Source: Pseudomonadota bacterium
GTDB lineage: Bacteria > Pseudomonadota > Alphaproteobacteria > Rhodospirillales > Casp-alpha2
Assembly: GCA_022563215.1 (NCBI GenBank)
Contig: JADFNT010000052.1
Span: 1-8,761, forward strand
Length of the DNA: 8,761 bases
Direction: 5' to 3'
The position numbers and the translations under genes are program-made. Below are positions 131-8,761 of this stretch, piece by piece. The stretch's first letter is position 1. Each line of letters opens with the position of its first letter. The notes beneath the pieces were generated by a model. It did no database searches. It saw nothing but the letters and a program-made list of their open reading frames with translations, and had not been told where the DNA came from.

Positions 131-499
131 TCATTGCGGGTGGCTCGATAGCCGGTTCTTGACCAACCCAAAAAACGCATCGCCGCCCGCCTCCTGGCGG
201 AAATGCCAGCCCAAATGCCCGCCGCAGCCCCGGCACAGGGCGAAGTTCCAGAGATAGCCCTGAAACCAGGTATGATCGGAGGTCGGCTCGCCCTCGGCCG
301 AAGCACCAGGCGCCTCGGCGAAGCAGACGATGCGGAAGCTATAGCCGGTGGGATTGGTGAACACGCGTTCGCGCCCGCCCATGGAGATCGCCCAGCGGGT
401 CCGCGTTACCAGGTGCCCGCAGGCGGCGCAATAGAGCGCGTCGTCGGTCTTCTCTTCCGCTTCGGTCGTGTCGTCGGTATCGGGCTTGATCTGGAGCAC
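131..499 (-). CDS. Stand-alone CULT-domain (cereblon-like) protein
   Basis: The product is a 122-residue single-domain protein of the CULT family, the thalidomide-binding fold of cereblon and of bacterial homologues such as the Magnetospirillum protein MsCI4 (about 124 residues). Two zinc knuckles are visible, C24-x-x-C27 and C89-x-x-C92. The ligand cage is complete: N49, H76, W78, W84, W98 and F100. These match human cereblon N351, H378, W380, W386, W400 and F402 with one constant numbering offset. There is no signal peptide or membrane segment, so it is probably cytosolic. The family binds cyclic imides and some nucleosides such as uridine, but its bacterial role is unknown. The start is GTG at 499, preceded by GGAGA at 506-510 with a 6-nt gap. 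It is the last gene after gatCAB and a GNAT enzyme, 50 bp from the latter. Family assignment is firm; function is not. Confidence 0.9.
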   Translation of the reverse strand: MLQIKPDTDDTTEAEEKTDDALYCAACGHLVTRTRWAISMGGRERVFTNPTGYSFRIVCFAEAPGASAEGEPTSDHTWFQGYLWNFALCRGCGGHLGWHFRQEAGGDAFFGLVKNRLSSHPQ

Positions 500-1103: not shown

Positions 1104-2561
1104 TCAGCCCCCCAGCTTCTCCCTCAGCAAATCGTTCACCATCTTCGGGTTGGCCTTGCCTTGGGTCGCCTTCATCACCTGGCCGACGAACCAGCCGATG
1201 GCTTTGTCGTTGCCGGACCTGACGTCGTCGGCCTGGTCCGGGTTCTCGGCGATGATCCTGGCCACGACGGCCTCGATCTCGCCCGTATCGGTGATCTGCT
1301 CCAGGCCCTTGTCGGCGACGATGGCGGCCGGGTCCTTGCCGGTCTCGAACATCTCGTCGAACACGTCCTTGGCCATGCGCCCCGAGATGGTGTCGTCGGC
1401 CATGAGGTCCAGAAGCCCGCCCAGGGCGCCCGGCGGGACGGGGCTTTCGGCGATGGCCTTGCCGGCCTTGTTCAAGGCCCCGAACAGGTTGCCGGTCACC
1501 CAGTTGGCGGCCTGCTTGGCGTCGCGGCCCTTGGCCGCCGTCTCGAAGTAATCGGCGGTTTCCCTCTCGGCCACCAGGACGCCGGCGTCATAAGCCGATA
1601 GCCCGTAATCGGAGACAAAACGCGCCTTCTTGTCGTCCGGCAGTTCGGGCAGGCTCTTCCTGATTCTCTCCACGTCCTCGTCGGCCAGCACCAGCGGCAG
1701 CAGGTCCGGGTCCGGGAAGTAGCGGTAGTCGTGGGCGTACTCCTTGGCCCGCATGGGCCGGGTCTCGTTCTTGGCGGCATCGAACAGCCGCGTTTCCTGC
1801 ACCACTTCCCCGCCGGCCTCGTAGGCCTCCACCTGGCGCTCGGCCTCGTGCTCGATGGCCTGCATGACGAAGCGCACGGAATTGACGTTCTTGATCTCGG
1901 TGCGGGTGCGGAGCGCGTCCGAGCCGGCGGGCCGGACCGAGACGTTGACGTCGGCGCGCATGGAGCCTTGCTCCATGTTGCCGTCACAGGTGCCCAGGTA
2001 GCGCAGGATGGAGCGTATCTTGCGCAGGTAGATGCCGGCCTCTTCGGGCGAGCGCAGGTCGGGCTTGGACACGATCTCCATCAGCGCCACGCCGGAACGG
2101 TTCAAATCGATGAAGGTGCGCTTCGGGTCCTGGTCGTGCAGGGATTTGCCGGCGTCCTGTTCCATGTGCAGGCGCTCGATGCCGATGTCCCGCGTCTCGC
2201 CGTCGGGCATGTCGAGCACCACCGTGCCCTCGCCGACGATGGGTTCGGCGTACTGGGAGATTTGGTAGCCCTGCGGCAGGTCGGCGTAGAAGTAGTTCTT
2301 GCGCTCGAAAACCGAATGCAGGTTGATCTTCGCCTTCAGCCCGAGGCCGGTCTTGACCGCCTGTTCGACGCAATACTCGTTGATGACCGGCAGCATCCCC
2401 GGCATCGCCGCGTCGACCAGCGACACCTGGGTGTTGGGCCCGGCGCCGAAGGCCGTGGCGGCGCCGGAAAAGAGCTTGGCCTGGGAAACGATCTGGGCGT
2501 GGATCTCGAGCCCGATCACCACTTCCCAATCGCCGCTTTCGCCTGAAATCAGGTAGCTCAT
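1104..2561 (-). CDS. gatB: Asp-tRNA(Asn)/Glu-tRNA(Gln) amidotransferase subunit B
   Basis: GatB (485 residues) is the tRNA-binding and kinase subunit of the cytosolic GatCAB complex. It activates the side chain of misacylated Glu-tRNA(Gln) or Asp-tRNA(Asn) with ATP and lets ammonia from GatA replace the phosphate. The N-terminal block [13 protein letters not shown] (12-24), the [10 protein letters not shown] motif (94-103) and the GatB signature [15 protein letters not shown] (151-165) are all present. The signature has Ala where many members have Pro. The C-terminal part from about residue 335 is the helical YqeY-like tRNA-binding tail, ending in a typical [11 protein letters not shown]. Length is normal and the gene looks intact. 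Its ATG overlaps the gatA stop by four bases (ATGA), indicating translational coupling. Confidence 0.98.
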
Positions 2562-4042
2562 GACGCGCCTCCCTTCGGCGAAGGCGGCCTGGCATCAAAC
2601 CCGGCCGCCTCTTCGAGGGCCGAGGCGGCGCGGAACAGGGTTACCTCGTCGAACGGCTTGGCGATCAGGTGCAGGCCCAGCGGCAGCCCGTCCCCGTCGA
2701 GCCCCGCCGGCACCGAAATCGCCGGCAGCCCGGCCATGGAAGCGGGCACGGTAAAGACGTCGTTCAGGTACATGGCCACCGGGTCGTCCATCTTGTCGCC
2801 GATGGCGAAGGCGGCCGACGGCGCCGTCGGCGTCAACAGCACGTCCACCTGCTCGAACGCCTCGGTAAAATCCTTGGCGATCAGGGTGCGGACCTTCTGC
2901 GCTTGGCGGTAATAGGCGTCATAGTAACCGGCCGACAGAACGTAGGTGCCGATCAGTATCCGGCGGCGGACCTCGTCGCCGAAGCCCTCGCCCCTAGTCG
3001 CTTCGTACATGTCGTCGAGCGACTCACCCTCGACGCGCAGCCCATAGCGCACCCCGTCGTACCGCGCCAGGTTGGAAGAGGCCTCGGCCGGGGCGACGAT
3101 GTAATAGGCCGGCAGGGCGTATTTGGTGTGGGCTAAGGAAACGTCGATGCATTCCGCGCCTTGGTCCTTCAACCAGTCCATGCCCTGTTGCCACAGCGCC
3201 TCGATCTCGCCGGGCATGCCGTCCAAATTATATTCCTTCGCAATCCCCACCTTCATCCCCTTGACCCCTTCCTTAAGCCCGGCGGAGAAATCGGGAACGT
3301 CGATCGGCGCCGAGGTCGAGTCCTTGGCATCGTGGCCGGCCATGGCGCCCAGCATGATGGCGGCGTCCTCGACGCTGCGGGTCAGCGGCCCGGCCTGATC
3401 CAGCGACGAGGCGAAGGCGACGATGCCCCAGCGCGAACAGCGGCCGTAGGTGGGCTTCATGCCGACGATGCCCGTGAACGACGCCGGCTGGCGGATCGAG
3501 CCGCCGGTATCGGTGCCGATGGCGCCGGAGCACAGGCCGCCCGCCACTGCCGCCGCCGAACCGCCGCTGGAACCACCTGGCACCAGGTCCTTGCCGCCGG
3601 GGCCCTTCCACGGGTTCTTCACCGGCCCGTAATAAGACGTGACGTTGGCGGACCCCATGGCGAATTCGTCCAAATTGGTCTTGCCCAGCATCACCGCGCC
3701 GGAGTCCTTGAGGTTGGCGCTGACGGTGGATTCATAAGTAGGCGTGAAGCCGTCGAGGATGTGCGAGCCGGCGGTGGTCAGCACGCCCTCGGTACAGAAC
3801 AGATCCTTAATGGCGATGGGGATGCCGTCCATGGGACCGGCCGCCTTGCCGCCGGCGCGCCGGGCGTCCGACGCCTTGGCCCGGTCGAGCGCGATGTCCG
3901 GCGTCTCGGTGATAAAGGCGTTGAGATCGCGCCCCCCTTCGAGCGCCTCGATGCAGGCCCGGGTCAGCTCCTCGGCCGTGAAGTCGCCGGCCTCGAGCCC
4001 CTTGCCGGCCTCGGCGAGGGAAAGTTCGGTCAGCGCGGTCAT
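2558..4042 (-). CDS. gatA: Asp-tRNA(Asn)/Glu-tRNA(Gln) amidotransferase subunit A (glutaminase)
   Basis: GatA (494 residues) is the amidase-signature subunit that hydrolyses glutamine and passes ammonia to GatB through an internal channel. The Ser-cisSer-Lys catalytic set is visible: K79 in IAIKD, cis-Ser S158 in the GGSSGGS loop (156-162), and the nucleophile S182 in [10 protein letters not shown], 24 residues after the cis-Ser as usual. The glycine/serine-rich amidase signature runs from about 150 to 200. Length is normal and no lesion is seen. Its ATG overlaps the gatC stop by four bases and its stop overlaps the gatB start in the same way, so the three subunits are translationally coupled and probably made in fixed ratio. 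An alternative reading as a generic amidase is ruled out by the gatC and gatB neighbours. Confidence 0.98.
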
Positions 4043-4350
4043 TCGACCACCTTCGGCACCGTGAAGAAGCCGCCGCCATCCTTACCGCCGGGGGCCGGTT
4101 CCGGATCGGTGGCGTTGGCCAGGATGTCCTGGGCGCGGCCGCCGTCGGTAATCTCGTCGTCGCGCCGGGGCCAATCCATGTCGGCGACCGACGTCATCGG
4201 CTCGACACCCTCGGTATCGACCTCGTTCAACTGCTCGACCCAGCCGATGATGTTGGAAAGCTCCACCGACAGGCCGTCGAGGGCATCCGCGGGCACCCGG
4301 ATGCGGGCAAGGATGGCGATTTTCCTGACGGTATCTTTGTCCAAGGACAT
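4039..4350 (-). CDS. gatC: Asp-tRNA(Asn)/Glu-tRNA(Gln) amidotransferase subunit C
   Basis: GatC (103 residues) is the small subunit that wraps around GatA and GatB and stabilises their complex. The N-terminal helix pattern ([14 protein letters not shown], 4-17), the [22 protein letters not shown] core and the C-terminal [12 protein letters not shown] tail are typical of the family, especially in alphaproteobacteria. The ATG at 4350 is preceded by GGAG at 4359 to 4356 with a 5-nt gap. It is the first gene of the gat run; its stop overlaps gatA. A possible promoter and hairpin lie in the 151-bp leader upstream. Confidence 0.96.
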
Positions 4351-4501: not shown

Positions 4502-5356
4502 TCAGGGGCTGTTCTTGATCAGGTCCCTCCAGGCGGATTTATTCCATGTCGCGAGGGTGATCACGACCGCGGCCCTCAATGCCTGGGGAACGGTCTTGGC
4601 GGAGATTTCCTTGGTCGCCGGGGTCTGTCCGAATTTCTCGATCGAGACGCTGTCGAAGACGACGCGGTTCTTGTCCTTGTCGTAAAGAAGGGTGGTGGAA
4701 AAGATGTCATCGTAGCCGCCCTCGATGTCCAAAACGTCGATACTGATCTGAAAGATCCGCTTGGTCCCCAATTGATAGGGCGCCTCGGTGATGAACATCG
4801 GGGTGCGGAACTTGACCTTGCGTTTGCCGTCCAGGCAGTCCCAATAGACGTCGTAATCGGCGATCTCGAAGACCTGTCCCTCGACTTGGCTTTTGCCCTC
4901 GAACCGGATGCGGTATCGGCACGAAGCCCCACCCTTCACCGATGTCTTGCCTTCAAGGTCACTATCCAGCGTGCCGTCGATCAACGGCAGAAGGATCCGG
5001 TCGTAAACGAAGCCCAGGTCCTTGCCGCCTTCGCGTACCGCCACCCAGGCGCTGGAGGCCCGGGCCACCACGTCAATGCGCTTGCCGGCCTTGAAGCTGC
5101 CGACCTTCTTGGATTTCGTCTTCGGCCGGGCGCGGATATTGACGTCCTTCAACACCAGATATTGGCCCTGCAGCGGCTTCACCTTGACGCCCATGAAGAT
5201 CATCGGCTTCGGCGGCGTTTTTTTCTCCGCCGCCAAGGCCGGGCCGACGGCGAGCGCGATCAGCAAAACCGCCGCCGCAACCGGACGGAAGGTCCCACCA
5301 CCGTTTGGATTTCTTGGCAAGGCCAAATGCCAGAAGCCGCCCTTTGCCTCAACCAT
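4502..5356 (-). CDS. Secreted SH3-like (SH3b) domain protein, function unknown
   Basis: The product has 284 residues from the ATG at 5356. A hydrophobic stretch at about 25-42 followed by ALAAEKK looks like a Sec signal peptide, preceded by a rather long n-region. Residues 68-122 (VLKDVNIRARPKTKSKKVGSFKAG and on) match the bacterial SH3 pattern: 'NIRARP', a spacer, 'G..F..GKRIDVVA', then 'AWVAV' and 'GFVYD'. Such domains often bind cell-wall or protein ligands. The remaining 150 residues are not recognised and contain only two cysteines after the signal (C146, C174), which could form a disulfide in the periplasm. The frame stays open upstream across ruvX, but that extension is antisense to ruvX and is not credible. 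ATG 5425 is an alternative start with poor RBS spacing. GGGGGG lies 6 nt before the chosen ATG. Confidence 0.75.
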   Translation of the reverse strand: MVEAKGGFWHLALPRNPNGGGTFRPVAAAVLLIALAVGPALAAEKKTPPKPMIFMGVKVKPLQGQYLVLKDVNIRARPKTKSKKVGSFKAGKRIDVVARASSAWVAVREGGKDLGFVYDRILLPLIDGTLDSDLEGKTSVKGGASCRYRIRFEGKSQVEGQVFEIADYDVYWDCLDGKRKVKFRTPMFITEAPYQLGTKRIFQISIDVLDIEGGYDDIFSTTLLYDKDKNRVVFDSVSIEKFGQTPATKEISAKTVPQALRAAVVITLATWNKSAWRDLIKNSP

Positions 5357-5385
5357 TGAGAGCCCCCCGAGCCCAGGAATAAGGT

Positions 5386-5414
5386 ATAAAAGAGGCTTAG
5401 GGTATGATAGCCAA
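5386..5414 (-). promoter_or_regulatory. Candidate promoter of the SH3-like gene
   Basis: On the minus strand TTGGCT (5414 to 5409) and TTTTAT (5391 to 5386) are separated by 17 bp and match the sigma-70 hexamers in four of six positions each. Transcription would start near 5379, about 23 bases before the ATG at 5356. This placement favours 5356 over the upstream ATG at 5425 as the true start. The 124-bp gap up to ruvX should also hold the ruvX promoter; on the plus strand TATGAT (5403-5408) is a good -10 hexamer but lacks a clear -35 partner. Confidence 0.3.
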
Positions 5415-5468
5415 CGTCGGGCCATGCCTCCACTGTCTTTTTTCCGGGGGCTTTTTTTTGACCCCTTC

Positions 5469-5474
5469 AAGGAG
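5469..5474 (+). promoter_or_regulatory. Ribosome binding site deciding the ruvX start
   Basis: AAGGAG at 5469-5474 lies six bases before a GTG codon at 5481-5483. This strong match and good spacing favour GTG 5481 over the in-frame ATG at 5424. The ATG would add 19 residues (starting MPPLSFFRG) that do not belong to the RuvX fold and has no comparable RBS. Confidence 0.75.
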
Positions 5475-5480
5475 CGCTTC

Positions 5481-5942
5481 GTGGCGATAACGGCCGTCGA
5501 TCGAATCAGGGACACACTCAAACCGGGACAGCGCCTGTTGGGGCTCGATGTCGGCTCCAAGACCATCGGCCTGGCGCTGTCGGACGTCACGTTGATGGTG
5601 GCGAGCCCGGCGGAAACCATCAAGCGCGGCAAGTTCGCCGCCGACGCAAAGCGCCTTGCCGGCATCATCGCCGGGGAAAACGTCGGTGGCCTGATCCTCG
5701 GGCTGCCGGTGCAGATGGACGGCGCCGAAGGCCGGCGCTGCCAATCGGTGCGCCAATTCGCCGACAACCTTCTCGAACACATCGATTTGCCCATCGCCTT
5801 TTGGGACGAACGGCTGTCGACGAAAGCCGTCGAGCGGGTGCTGATCGACGAGGCCGACATGACCCGCAAGCGCCGCGCCGAGGTGATCGACAAGATGGCC
5901 GCCGCCTACATCCTGCAAGGGGCGCTGGACTCGATGCCATGA
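5481..5942 (+). CDS. ruvX: RuvX/YqgF family Holliday-junction resolvase-like nuclease
   Basis: This 153-residue protein has an RNase H-like fold. YqgF/RuvX proteins are described as putative Holliday junction resolvases and as nucleases in processing the 5' end of pre-16S rRNA. Landmarks are the first acidic motif LLGLDVGSKTIGLALSD (19-35, with D23), ILGLPVQMDG (72-81), the second acidic motif DERLST (109-114, with E110) and VIDKMAAAYILQ (135-146, with D137). All three acidic catalytic positions are present. Length from the GTG start matches the family (about 140-160). Its TGA overlaps the ATG of the AEC transporter by four bases, so the two are cotranslated despite unrelated roles. Confidence 0.93.
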   Translation: MAITAVDRIRDTLKPGQRLLGLDVGSKTIGLALSDVTLMVASPAETIKRGKFAADAKRLAGIIAGENVGGLILGLPVQMDGAEGRRCQSVRQFADNLLEHIDLPIAFWDERLSTKAVERVLIDEADMTRKRRAEVIDKMAAAYILQGALDSMP

Positions 5943-6880
5943 CCGGCGTCCTGTCCGCCCTGGCCCCGGTGTTCGGGCTGATCGCCGTCGGCTACCTGCT
6001 CAAGTCCCGCCGCATCTTCACCGACGATTTCTGGGACCCGGCCGAGCGGTTGACCTTCTACTTCCTGTTCCCGGCGCTTCTGATAACGTCGATCGGCGGC
6101 GCCGAGGCCGTCGGCCCGGACCTGCTGCCGATGGCCGCCGCCCTGGCCGTGGCGACGGGGCTGATGGCCGGCGCGTTGATCGCCCTCAGGCCCCGGCTGG
6201 CCAAGGCGGGCCTCGCCGGGCCGTCGTTCGTGTCGGTGTTCCAGGGCGCCATCCGCCCCAACACCTATGTCGGCATCGCCGCCGCGATGGCGCTTTTCGG
6301 CGACGCCGGGCTGACGCTGACGGCGGCCGCCATCGTCGCCGTCATCCCGCTGGTCAATTTCCTGGCCATCGTCGGCCATTTGCGCTGGGCCGGGGGCGGC
6401 GCCGAAACATCCAACCCCGGAAACGGCTGGGGCGAGGCCGTGGCGCCGGCGCTGAAAAACCCGATCATCATCGCCTGCCTGATCGGCGCCACGCTCAACG
6501 TCACCGGCTTCGGCCTGCCGCCGGTCATCGGCCCGATCCTGGAAATCATCGGCCGCGCGGCGCTGCCGCTCGGACTGATGGCGGTCGGCGCCGGGCTCGA
6601 TTTCACCGCCGTCAGGGAGGCCCGCAATGCCGTCATCGGCACGGCGGCGCTGAAACTGGCGGTGACCCCGGCCGTCACCTATGGCGCCTGCCAGGTGTTC
6701 GGCGTTACCGGCCCGGCGGCCGCCGTCGCGGTGATGTTCATGGCCCTGCCGGTATCGGCGGCCAGCTACGTGATGTCGCGCCAACTCGGCGGCGACGGGC
6801 CGTTGATGGCCGGGATCGTCACCGCCACTACCCTTGGCGCCGCGGTGACGATGCCGCTGGTGGTGGTTTTGGCGGGGTGA
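5939..6880 (+). CDS. AEC (auxin efflux carrier) family transporter
   Basis: The 313-residue product is an inner-membrane protein with about ten hydrophobic segments in two halves of five, as is typical of the AEC/bile-acid-transporter superfamily. Recognisable points are FYFLFPALLITS (40-51, the conserved Pro in the first half), the hydrophilic centre at about 150-172, KNPIIIACLIGATLN (173-187) and the second-half motif AASYVMSRQLGGD (274-285). Bacterial members export or import small organic acids such as malate or malonate, but the substrate cannot be told here. The start ATG overlaps the ruvX stop, and no separate promoter is needed. It converges on ynfA with only 15 bp between the stop codons, and no hairpin terminator is visible there. 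Confidence 0.9.
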   Translation: MTGVLSALAPVFGLIAVGYLLKSRRIFTDDFWDPAERLTFYFLFPALLITSIGGAEAVGPDLLPMAAALAVATGLMAGALIALRPRLAKAGLAGPSFVSVFQGAIRPNTYVGIAAAMALFGDAGLTLTAAAIVAVIPLVNFLAIVGHLRWAGGGAETSNPGNGWGEAVAPALKNPIIIACLIGATLNVTGFGLPPVIGPILEIIGRAALPLGLMAVGAGLDFTAVREARNAVIGTAALKLAVTPAVTYGACQVFGVTGPAAAVAVMFMALPVSAASYVMSRQLGGDGPLMAGIVTATTLGAAVTMPLVVVLAG

Positions 6881-6895
6881 GGGTTATACCAAGGA

Positions 6896-7222
6896 TTACG
6901 CCGCCCGCGGCCCGAGCAGGATGACGGCGGCGCCGACGAGGCAAATCATGGCGCCGAGGAGATCCCAGCGGTCGGGGCGGATGCCCTCCGCCGCCCACAG
7001 CCAGACCAGCGACGCGGCAATGTAGACACCGCCATAGGCGGCAAAGGCGCGGCCGGCGTAAAGGGCGTCGATTTTGGTCAGCAGGTAGGCGAAAAAGAAC
7101 AGCGCCGCCAGGCCGGGAACCAGCCAAAGGGGGCTTTTGCCGAGCCGCAGCCAGGCCCAGAAGGCGAAGCACCCGGCGATTTCGGCGGCCGCGGCGGCGG
7201 CGTAGATAATCAACGATTTCAT
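6896..7222 (-). CDS. ynfA: YnfA/UPF0060 family small membrane protein
   Basis: A 108-residue integral membrane protein with four hydrophobic segments (about 4-22, 32-50, 60-77 and 88-105). It has the conserved early glutamate E14 in AAAEIAGC, and the family patterns [15 protein letters not shown] and [10 protein letters not shown]. Length equals the family norm. YnfA proteins resemble small multidrug resistance transporters and have been linked to drug efflux in enterobacteria; the role here is inference. The ATG at 7222 was chosen because an upstream extension (17 residues from 7273) overlaps the sulfotransferase and lacks the family sequence. The AGGGGG RBS partly overlaps the TAG stop of the sulfotransferase gene, so the two genes (11 bp apart) are probably cotranscribed. 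Confidence 0.92.
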
Positions 7223-7233
7223 CGCCCCGCCCC

Positions 7234-8094
7234 CTAAACCTCGTACCCCAGAAGCTTCAGCAACTCGCCGCATTGGCGGTTGAAGGACCGTTTTTCCGCC
7301 GCCTCGAAGGTGTGTTTCCAGTCGCCGGGGTCGACGTCCAATCGCGCCGCCTCCCAGGCCGCTTCGGCGGTGTCCTTGATCACCGCCTCGCCGTCGTCGA
7401 CGCCGAGGAATTTCAACAACGGCCTAAGCGCCGGCTCCGCCTCGCCCTGGGCGTCTTCGGCGCGGAAATGAAAACACTGTCCCGGGTGGTCGCGCTCGAA
7501 CCGCCGGGCGGCGGTAATGCTTTTGCTCCAGTTGCCGGCAAAGGTCTTGGCGAAATCGCCGAATTTTGGGTAAAGCTCGCGGAACTTGCCGCGGCTGAGG
7601 CCTGAATTGAATTCCCAGGCCGATACCGCTTCGTCGCGGCCGTCGCGGTAAACGTGAACGATTTTCAGACTCGGCACGACGCGGGCAAGCAAATCCAGCG
7701 ACACGACATGTTCGGGTGTCTTTTCGGCAATCACCTTGACGTCGGCGCCGTCGGTCCAGCGGTCGAGCGCCAGCCCGATGGCGGTGGTCATCATGTGGTC
7801 CACGTCCTCGAACGTGAAACCCGCCGCGTTGCCCGGAAGCCCGGCCTTTTGCAGCCGGTTGCCGACGGTTTCGGCTTCGGTGTTGTAATCGTCGAAAACC
7901 TTGGCCAACATCGGAAACAGGACATCGGTGAAGTGCCCCTCGCCCTTGCAGCAGATTTCCGGGTGCGCGTCCAGGCACTGTTGGACCCAGGCCGTTCCCC
8001 AGCGGGTCGCGCCGACGATGAAGACGATTTCCCGGTCCAGCAACCGGGCCAGGCGTTCGTGGTTTTTAAGGTATTCCTTCATGGTTGGCGGCAT
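7234..8094 (-). CDS. PAPS-dependent sulfotransferase family protein
   Basis: The product has 286 residues from ATG 8094 (282 from ATG 8082). It belongs to the P-loop sulfotransferases, which transfer sulfate from PAPS to a hydroxyl or amine. The 5'-phosphosulfate loop is [17 protein letters not shown] (22-38) near the N-terminus, and the 3'-phosphate region is [17 protein letters not shown] (144-160). A loop EKTPEH (124-129) also fits the family. The P-loop reads RWGTA where RSGTT/S is common, a visible departure that need not abolish binding. No signal peptide is present, so it should be cytosolic, acting perhaps on a lipid, sugar or secondary metabolite. Neither ATG has a good Shine-Dalgarno, so the start is uncertain. 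Extension to a TTG at 8193 would run over the pyrB start and is rejected. Confidence 0.82.
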
Positions 8095-8110
8095 TTTCCC
8101 GCACACGTGC

Positions 8111-8139
8111 TTGCGCCGCAACCCGTCAATCCATATAGT
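8111..8139 (+). promoter_or_regulatory. Candidate promoter of pyrB
   Basis: TTGCGC (8111-8116) and TATAGT (8134-8139) are separated by 17 bp. The -10 hexamer matches the sigma-70 consensus at five of six positions and the -35 at three. Transcription would start near 8146, giving a leader of about 25 bases before the ATG. That is too short for a classical pyrimidine attenuator. The element sits in the divergent gap between the sulfotransferase and pyrB. Confidence 0.45.
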
Positions 8140-8151
8140 GCGCGCCGCATT

Positions 8152-8160
8152 AAGGAGGTG
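8152..8160 (+). promoter_or_regulatory. Very strong Shine-Dalgarno of pyrB with long spacing
   Basis: AAGGAGGTG at 8152-8160 is complementary to the 16S rRNA 3' end over nine bases. The gap from GGAGG to the ATG at 8171 is 12 nt (10 nt counted from the end of the full match), longer than the usual 5-9. No ATG, GTG or TTG in the pyrB frame lies closer. The nearby GTG codons (8158, 8161) share a different frame that stops at 8187 after a few codons. Confidence 0.65.
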
Positions 8161-8170
8161 GTGTACGCCT

Positions 8171-8761
8171 ATGGCCAAAGGCGGTAAGGACAACGTCTAT
8201 TTTCCTCATCGGCATCTGCTCGGCATTGAAGGTCTTTCGCCGGAAGAAATATCGATTTTACTGGACCGTTCCGAAACCTACGTCGAACAGAACCGCCGCG
8301 CCGATAAGACCACGCCCCTTCTTCACGGCCGCACCATCATCAATCTCTTCTTCGAGGAATCGACCCGCACCCGGACGTCGTTCGAGCTCGCCGGCAAGCG
8401 CCTTGGCGGCGACATGATCAACATGTCGGTGGCCACCAGCTCGGTGAAAAAAGGCGAGACGCTTATCGACACGGCGATGACGCTGAATGCCATGCACCCG
8501 GACGTTTTGGTGGTCCGTCACCCCCATTCCGGGGCCGTCAAACTGCTGTCGGAAAAGGTCAACTGCGCCGTCATCAACGGCGGCGACGGCAGCCACGAAC
8601 ACCCGACCCAGGCGTTGCTGGACGCGCTCACCATCCGCCGGCGGCGGGGCACCCTGAGCGGCCTTCTGGTCGCCATCTGCGGCGATATCCTGCATTCCCG
8701 GGTCGCCAGGTCGAACATTCACTTGCTCAATACCATGGGGCCGCGGGTCCGGCGGATCGCG
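8171..8761 (+). CDS. pyrB: Aspartate carbamoyltransferase catalytic chain (partial, 3' end cut by window)
   Basis: The first 197 residues of aspartate transcarbamoylase are present, open to the window edge. The enzyme condenses carbamoyl phosphate with aspartate, the first committed step of pyrimidine synthesis, in the cytosol. The carbamoyl-phosphate motif STRTRTS is at 64-70, the mobile lysine loop SSVKKGET at 90-97, RHP at 116-118, and [18 protein letters not shown] at 138-155 with the active-site His H144. The second domain begins with [16 protein letters not shown] (167-182). The [12 protein letters not shown] version is the form seen in many non-enteric bacteria, in which pyrC or an inactive dihydroorotase-like gene often follows; that region is outside the window. 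The start is the ATG at 8171. Confidence 0.97.

Follow-up and report, generated by a model that had tools for sequence, protein, structure and literature searches.

An alphaproteobacterial single-domain CULT protein with a complete aromatic cage and a predicted, naturally part-humanised pocket

Results

The window analyzed here is the whole of contig JADFNT010000052.1 (8,761 bases), which belongs to a Rhodospirillales genome of 2.1 Mb in 397 contigs (assembly GCA_022563215.1; 74% complete). Near one end it carries, on the minus strand at positions 131 to 499, a gene that we assign to the CULT-domain proteins by its open reading frame, its match in a sequence search of the Protein Data Bank (PDB), and its predicted fold. 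The gene encodes 122 amino acids, starting with a GTG codon at position 499, which aligns to the ATG of its relatives (MLQ...), and stopping at positions 131 to 133. By eye, a GGAG motif can be read seven bases 5' of the start.

In the PDB search, the protein matched MsCI4 (cereblon isoform 4, MGR_0879, of Magnetospirillum gryphiswaldense) with an E value of ~1e-26 and cereblon chains with E values from 8.5e-15 (4ci1) to 8.8e-13, which bears out the CULT identity that an earlier note had proposed for this gene from the DNA alone. The features that Lupas 2015 gives for the bacterial single-domain CULT group were recovered in it: two CxxC pairs for one zinc (C24/C27 and C89/C92), three invariant cage tryptophans (W78, W84, and W98, aligning with human W380, W386, and W400), NPxG at the hairpin tip (N49-P-T-G52), a protein consisting of the CULT domain only (residues ~19 to 121, with a short disordered tail), and a beta-tent fold in the predicted structure. 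This fold matches that of the thalidomide-binding domain of human cereblon (e.g., 9odr and 4tz4) at 1.4 Å over 101 residues, and the two share the cage of three tryptophans and a phenylalanine, whereas their rim residues differ; the superposition lends indirect support to the putative geometry of the tryptophan cage. Cereblon proper combines LON and CULT domains and acts as a CRL4 substrate receptor; in contrast, the window protein has no LON/DDB1-binding region, and only ~20 residues precede its domain. This N-terminal tail (residues 1 to 20, positions 440 to 499, minus strand) runs from MLQ through an acidic stretch to DD and is predicted to be disordered, with a predicted local distance difference test score below 50 at residues 2 to 17. 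Its residues M1, L2, Q3, D19, and D20 occur at 90% or more in a 31-sequence alignment, and the tail differs in other families. Yippee/Mis18 (PF03226) is described as a related beta-tent family (PMC4287342); the window protein matched it weakly (20.3 bits, under the Pfam gathering cut-off of 26.6) and is not placed in it, and no NCBIfam family matched. Judged by its sequence, the window protein is a genuine and complete member of the bacterial single-domain CULT group, and thereby an additional member of a known family.

Pocket residues were tallied over 208 bacterial or metagenomic CULT sequences aligned with the human domain and MsCI4. This set takes in the window protein and one fragment (P0031), draws on the best 120 of 762 protein matches, and leans toward the kin of the window; for the tree, the entropy values, and the count of G52, MsCI4 took the place of the fragment. 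The first zinc-binding pair (C24 and C27, positions 419 to 430; these and the following positions on the minus strand) is present in 208/208 sequences and the second (C89 and C92, 224 to 235) in 207/208, with one gap. At the hairpin tip (344 to 355), N49 is found in 208/208 and the following proline and G52 in 207/208 each. Cage tryptophans W78 (266 to 268) and W84 (248 to 250) are each conserved in 207/208 with one gap, and W98 (206 to 208) in 206/208, with one cysteine and one gap. The four cysteines, N49, and the three tryptophans are invariant in the 31-sequence alignment, which includes the window protein. Other pocket positions vary: H76 (272 to 274; human H378), for which PMC8900816 describes a backbone role, is histidine in 46/208; Y53 (341 to 343; human Y355) is rare in bacteria, with tyrosine in 9/208; and F100 at the cage base (200 to 202, codon TTC; human F402) is phenylalanine in 105, tyrosine in 102, and a gap in one of the 208. 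The complete cage listed in the earlier note, comprising both CxxC pairs, N49, H76, W78, W84, W98, and F100, was confirmed residue by residue by alignment with human cereblon and MsCI4. The single constant offset to human numbering that the note had stated applies, with a value of 302, across N49 through F100 as well as at C89/C92. At C24/C27 it is 299, the first sheet being shorter by three residues.

Three further observations concern this alignment. C59 (196/208; window positions 323 to 325) and F55 (198/208; 335 to 337) are near-invariant in bacteria and correspond to Thr361 and His357 in human cereblon; they are bacterial-specific conserved positions beside the pocket hairpin. The cysteine at the third cage tryptophan (W400) belongs to the protein of locus L091 (genome G289), which retains the other two tryptophans and is either a naturally occurring variant of the cage or a gene copy in decay.

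The earlier note had also put forward the natural phenylalanine at the cage base as the distinction from MsCI4 and the protein as one that may, with its single domain, mimic the human pocket more closely. What it stated of MsCI4 is accurate: Tyr101 is present, and the Y101F mutant has been solved (4v32; PMC8900816). MsCI4 (4v2y and 4v32) has Tyr101, Phe77, Met54, and Ala52 where the window protein has F100, H76, Y53, and T51. However, with Phe402 in 105/208 bacterial sequences, phenylalanine is ordinary, and we rejected it as a distinguishing feature. More unusual is its combination with other residues. Five pocket residues were humanised in the engineered MsCI4 structure 9gjq, as read from its alignment (H353, Y355, H357, H378, and F402; a sixth change lies elsewhere). 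The window protein shares Y355, H378, and F402, a trio found in 3/208 sequences including its own, and four or more of the five occur in none; MsCI4 has none of them. Phe402 and His378 together occur in 25/208, and His353 in 15/208. On the other hand, the natural window protein lacks H353 and H357, with threonine and phenylalanine in their place, and has glutamate for I371 and phenylalanine for V388. Over the whole domain, the window protein is identical to human cereblon at 30/102 positions and MsCI4 at 37/100. Over 22 cage-and-rim positions of our own choosing, both match the human residue at 12, a score exceeded by 11 other bacterial sequences with 13. We thus rejected the notion that the whole pocket is more human than that of MsCI4; what stands of the earlier proposal is the human set of cage aromatics and three of the five humanising residues. 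Humanised MsCI4 structures have been deposited (6r0q and 9gjq), and isolated human and mouse domains as well as MsCI4 are reported to crystallise routinely, below 2 Å (PMC11480361), so that the need for a natural stand-in is largely met by better constructs and the applied argument for the window protein is weak. That it represents a closer natural stand-in for the human pocket is therefore doubtful. From sequence, its pocket is best described as unusual and naturally part-humanised, with an ordinary headline feature. As one of three sequences with the natural humanising trio, it provides a natural means of testing which residues of the pocket determine the affinity for imides.

According to PMC8900816, tyrosine at the cage base provides a third hydrogen bond, which raises affinity and leaves the pose unchanged. 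On a tree built without the position-402 column, the Phe/Tyr state at this position switches at least 35 times, compared with 60 to 79 times with shuffled labels; the count is an estimate from one tree, made by a quick search on ~100 columns. The state thus appears to be inherited for a while yet often switched. Independent pairs differing in Phe/Tyr on well-supported branches number only six, and the test of a possible coupling of the cage phenylalanine with His378 on the tree drew on only six supported independent pairs. The window protein has phenylalanine, while tyrosine occurs in two congeneric genomes (L002 and L003). In the wider tally, the tyrosine bond seems to have come and gone often. 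The bond that sets MsCI4 apart from human cereblon is thus a likelier candidate for tuning than for a difference at the species level, which matters to those inferring human pharmacology from MsCI4.

A CULT profile matched in 82/317 genomes of the order (57/212 of the good ones), two of the matches being partial (G121 and G160), in 4/385 sampled genomes of the class, and in 21/398 of the phylum, the own genome included in both; the other 20 genomes of the phylum sample all belong to one further class, in which 20/48 genomes matched. In the description by Lupas and co-workers, most of the bacterial CULT group came from delta-proteobacteria and a few members from alpha- and gamma-proteobacteria (PMC4287342). 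The alphaproteobacterial spread found here is wider, as expected given more genomes. One CULT frame (G029:C96:2884-3237) contains an in-frame TGA and is either a broken copy or an assembly error. Searches of plasmids, phages, and viral contigs detected no CULT match at the sensitivities applied, and a mobile origin was rejected on this basis. The same result bears on the idea that natural products or xenobiotics containing an imide or lactam are bound by the cage, which would sense them or act as a sink. PDB entry titles and PMC8900816 show MsCI4 to accommodate many imides, lactams, and related drugs, and a patchy gene (82/317) with a largely variable rim would suit such a role; however, there is no sign of a mobile trait, and no resistance or biosynthesis gene recurring near CULT was seen by eye. 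We consider this explanation highly unlikely.

In the window, the minus strand reads gatC, gatA, and gatB (4039 to 4350, 2558 to 4042, and 1104 to 2561; together 1104 to 4350; Pfam GatC, Amidase, and GatB), then, after 26 bases, a GNAT acetyltransferase gene (550 to 1077; PF00583, E value 1.5e-19), and, after 50 bases, the CULT gene; 130 bases further on, the contig ends. Cotranscription of the GNAT and CULT genes is possible, and the function of the former is, as far as known, unrelated to CULT. A promoter and terminator scan of the window returned nothing on the minus strand. The rest of the window (5022 to 8761) contains genes for RuvX, an auxin-efflux-type transporter, YnfA/UPF0060, and a sulfotransferase, and the start of pyrB, named by eye, runs off the contig end.

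Across genomes, neighbors were named by eye from their sequences, except for the Pfam-based GNAT and gatCAB assignments in the window, and many were left unread. The simple open reading frame caller had to be forced to the CULT gene in 10/72 loci, can misplace neighbors in GC-rich DNA, and in a second run placed no CULT gene in 2/20 loci (L130 and L134); among the 17 loci of the other class, CULT was likewise left unplaced in two. Among 69 nonduplicate loci, CULT shares its strand with the immediate upstream gene in 53/68 cases and lies within 60 bases of it in 40; CULT therefore often ends an operon. The partners change by family. Neighbors in the family of the window are gatB, plsY, GNAT, and a downstream SelW-like gene: gatB lies at most three genes from CULT in 14/69 loci, GNAT is near it in 6/69, every one in this family, and a small SelW/SelT-like CxxC gene directly follows it in 10/69, again all in this family (L004, L006, L007, L008, L051-L054, L059, and L062). 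HIT, SDR, and Der GTPase genes are the neighbors in families f24, f28, and f30, respectively. A parvulin gene, the sole partner read that two families of the order share, lies at most three genes away in 13/69 loci, all in families f21 and f22. At locus L072 (G120:C1:1385275-1401583), a CULT protein with three differences from MsCI4 over 101 residues is encoded 2 bases after a tandem-parvulin-like gene (peptidyl-prolyl isomerase), whereas the window gene follows gatCAB and GNAT. In the other class, a rhodanese-like single-domain gene directly follows CULT on the same strand in 5/17 loci from three families (L126, L128, L132, L139, and L142). A conserved operon partner across families was not found among the neighbors read, each family having its own, and the genomic context therefore does not identify the role of the protein.

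One recurring arrangement touches on a different ligand. In 5/69 loci, CULT directly follows plsY, with pyrB and pyrC, named by eye, ahead. This would fit a pyrimidine sensor or store with uridine or another uracil or dihydrouracil ring as the natural ligand. The arrangement was found in the window's own family only, pyrBC-plsY is an ordinary alphaproteobacterial cluster, and no nucleoside gene beside CULT was seen by eye to recur in other families. MsCI4 has been solved with deoxyuridine (4v31), and its low-micromolar uridine binding is reported in PMC4449219. Weighing both sides, we regard a pyrimidine ligand as unlikely.

Discussion

CULT proteins are an established tool in drug design. A search of the open-access literature, which excludes most subscription papers, found no study of what a bacterial CULT protein does naturally. 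Taken as a whole, our analysis makes it probable that the window encodes a CULT pocket protein whose predicted fold would form an imide-binding cage like those of MsCI4 and human cereblon. By analogy to the solved relatives, an imide would sit among the three tryptophans with the phenylalanine at the base, bonding through its NH and one carbonyl to the main chain of H76 and W78. F100 has no tyrosine hydroxyl and would thus make no third bond to the imide, so that affinity is expected to be near that of MsCI4 Y101F and human cereblon, not that of wild-type MsCI4. Aromatic cages of this kind are also typical for cations, and a reader of methylated lysine or arginine, or of quaternary ammonium compounds, has been proposed for cereblon (PMC4449219). 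However, in vitro tests with such groups are described there as inconclusive, and the pair of a backbone donor and an acceptor suits an imide; a cation ligand seems to us very improbable indeed.

As to the role of the imide-binding cage in the cell, we tentatively suggest, at rather less than an even chance, that the protein acts on its own to read imide ends, which would mainly be cyclic Asn and Gln imides at C termini. Such ends might form on aged or cleaved proteins and peptides, either spontaneously or by the PIMT methyltransferase, and once bound they might be handed over to a protease by the disordered tail, the last step being a guess. Cyclic imides at C termini are recognised by human cereblon (PMC12117711) and can be produced by PIMT (PMC13001092). 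An invariant cage combined with a rim that varies at most positions is consistent with recognition of the imide itself and not of a single partner protein.

Several observations weigh against this proposal. The mean entropy of ten self-chosen rim positions is 2.08 bits, only slightly over the domain mean of 1.71 bits, and the rim is not wholly variable, positions 357 and 397 being conserved (0.28 and 0.41 bits). Uridine is likewise reported to bind MsCI4 (PMC4449219). No CULT match was found in 235/317 genomes of the order, some of them incomplete, so that the role would be dispensable. A peptidase-like gene, identified by eye, lies directly upstream on the same strand in three loci only (M23-like in L047 and L061 and trypsin-like in L080), and no neighbor read is common to families, save parvulin in two and the rhodanese-like gene in three of the other class.

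The presence of the putative writer is equally unhelpful: PIMT was found in 305/317 genomes of the order and in 80/82 of those with CULT, and being nearly universal it proves nothing, so that its presence was discarded as an uninformative partner test. In copy number, CULT-bearing genomes have an excess of PIMT of +0.39 within families (permutation p 0.003; 244/317 genomes, 77/82 with CULT), a test to which families without both CULT states contribute no information. In a set of 177/317 genomes, which holds of family f24 only genus g86 (6/73), the rest of that family being added in the 244-genome set, the excess is +0.40 within family (p 0.006) and +0.39 within genus (p 0.018). The comparison is, however, post hoc: p rises to 0.09 when family f30 is left out and to 0.13 when the window's genus is dropped as well, and in the 177-genome set the excess adjusted for genome size and completeness is 0.27 +/- 0.15 and the within-genus p is 0.056 among genomes at least 85% complete. 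The copy-number excess is thus weak, unplanned, and carried by f30 and the window's genus, and we treat it as a lead, not as support. Within that genus, the three CULT-bearing genomes (L147, L148, and L152) have four to five PIMT copies each and seven CULT-free congeners one to three; each of the three encodes one PIMT with an apparent N-terminal membrane or signal segment.

It is tempting to extend the reader proposal to a forerunner of the cereblon degron pathway that works without ubiquitin, in which PIMT or spontaneous cyclisation would write the mark, the cage would read it, the tail would deliver it to a protease, and the Phe/Tyr exchange at the cage base would tune the hold. We judge this full scheme to be distinctly unlikely. 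If it were true, however, the cage with which bacterial CULT proteins read worn-out proteins would be the one that binds thalidomide in humans.
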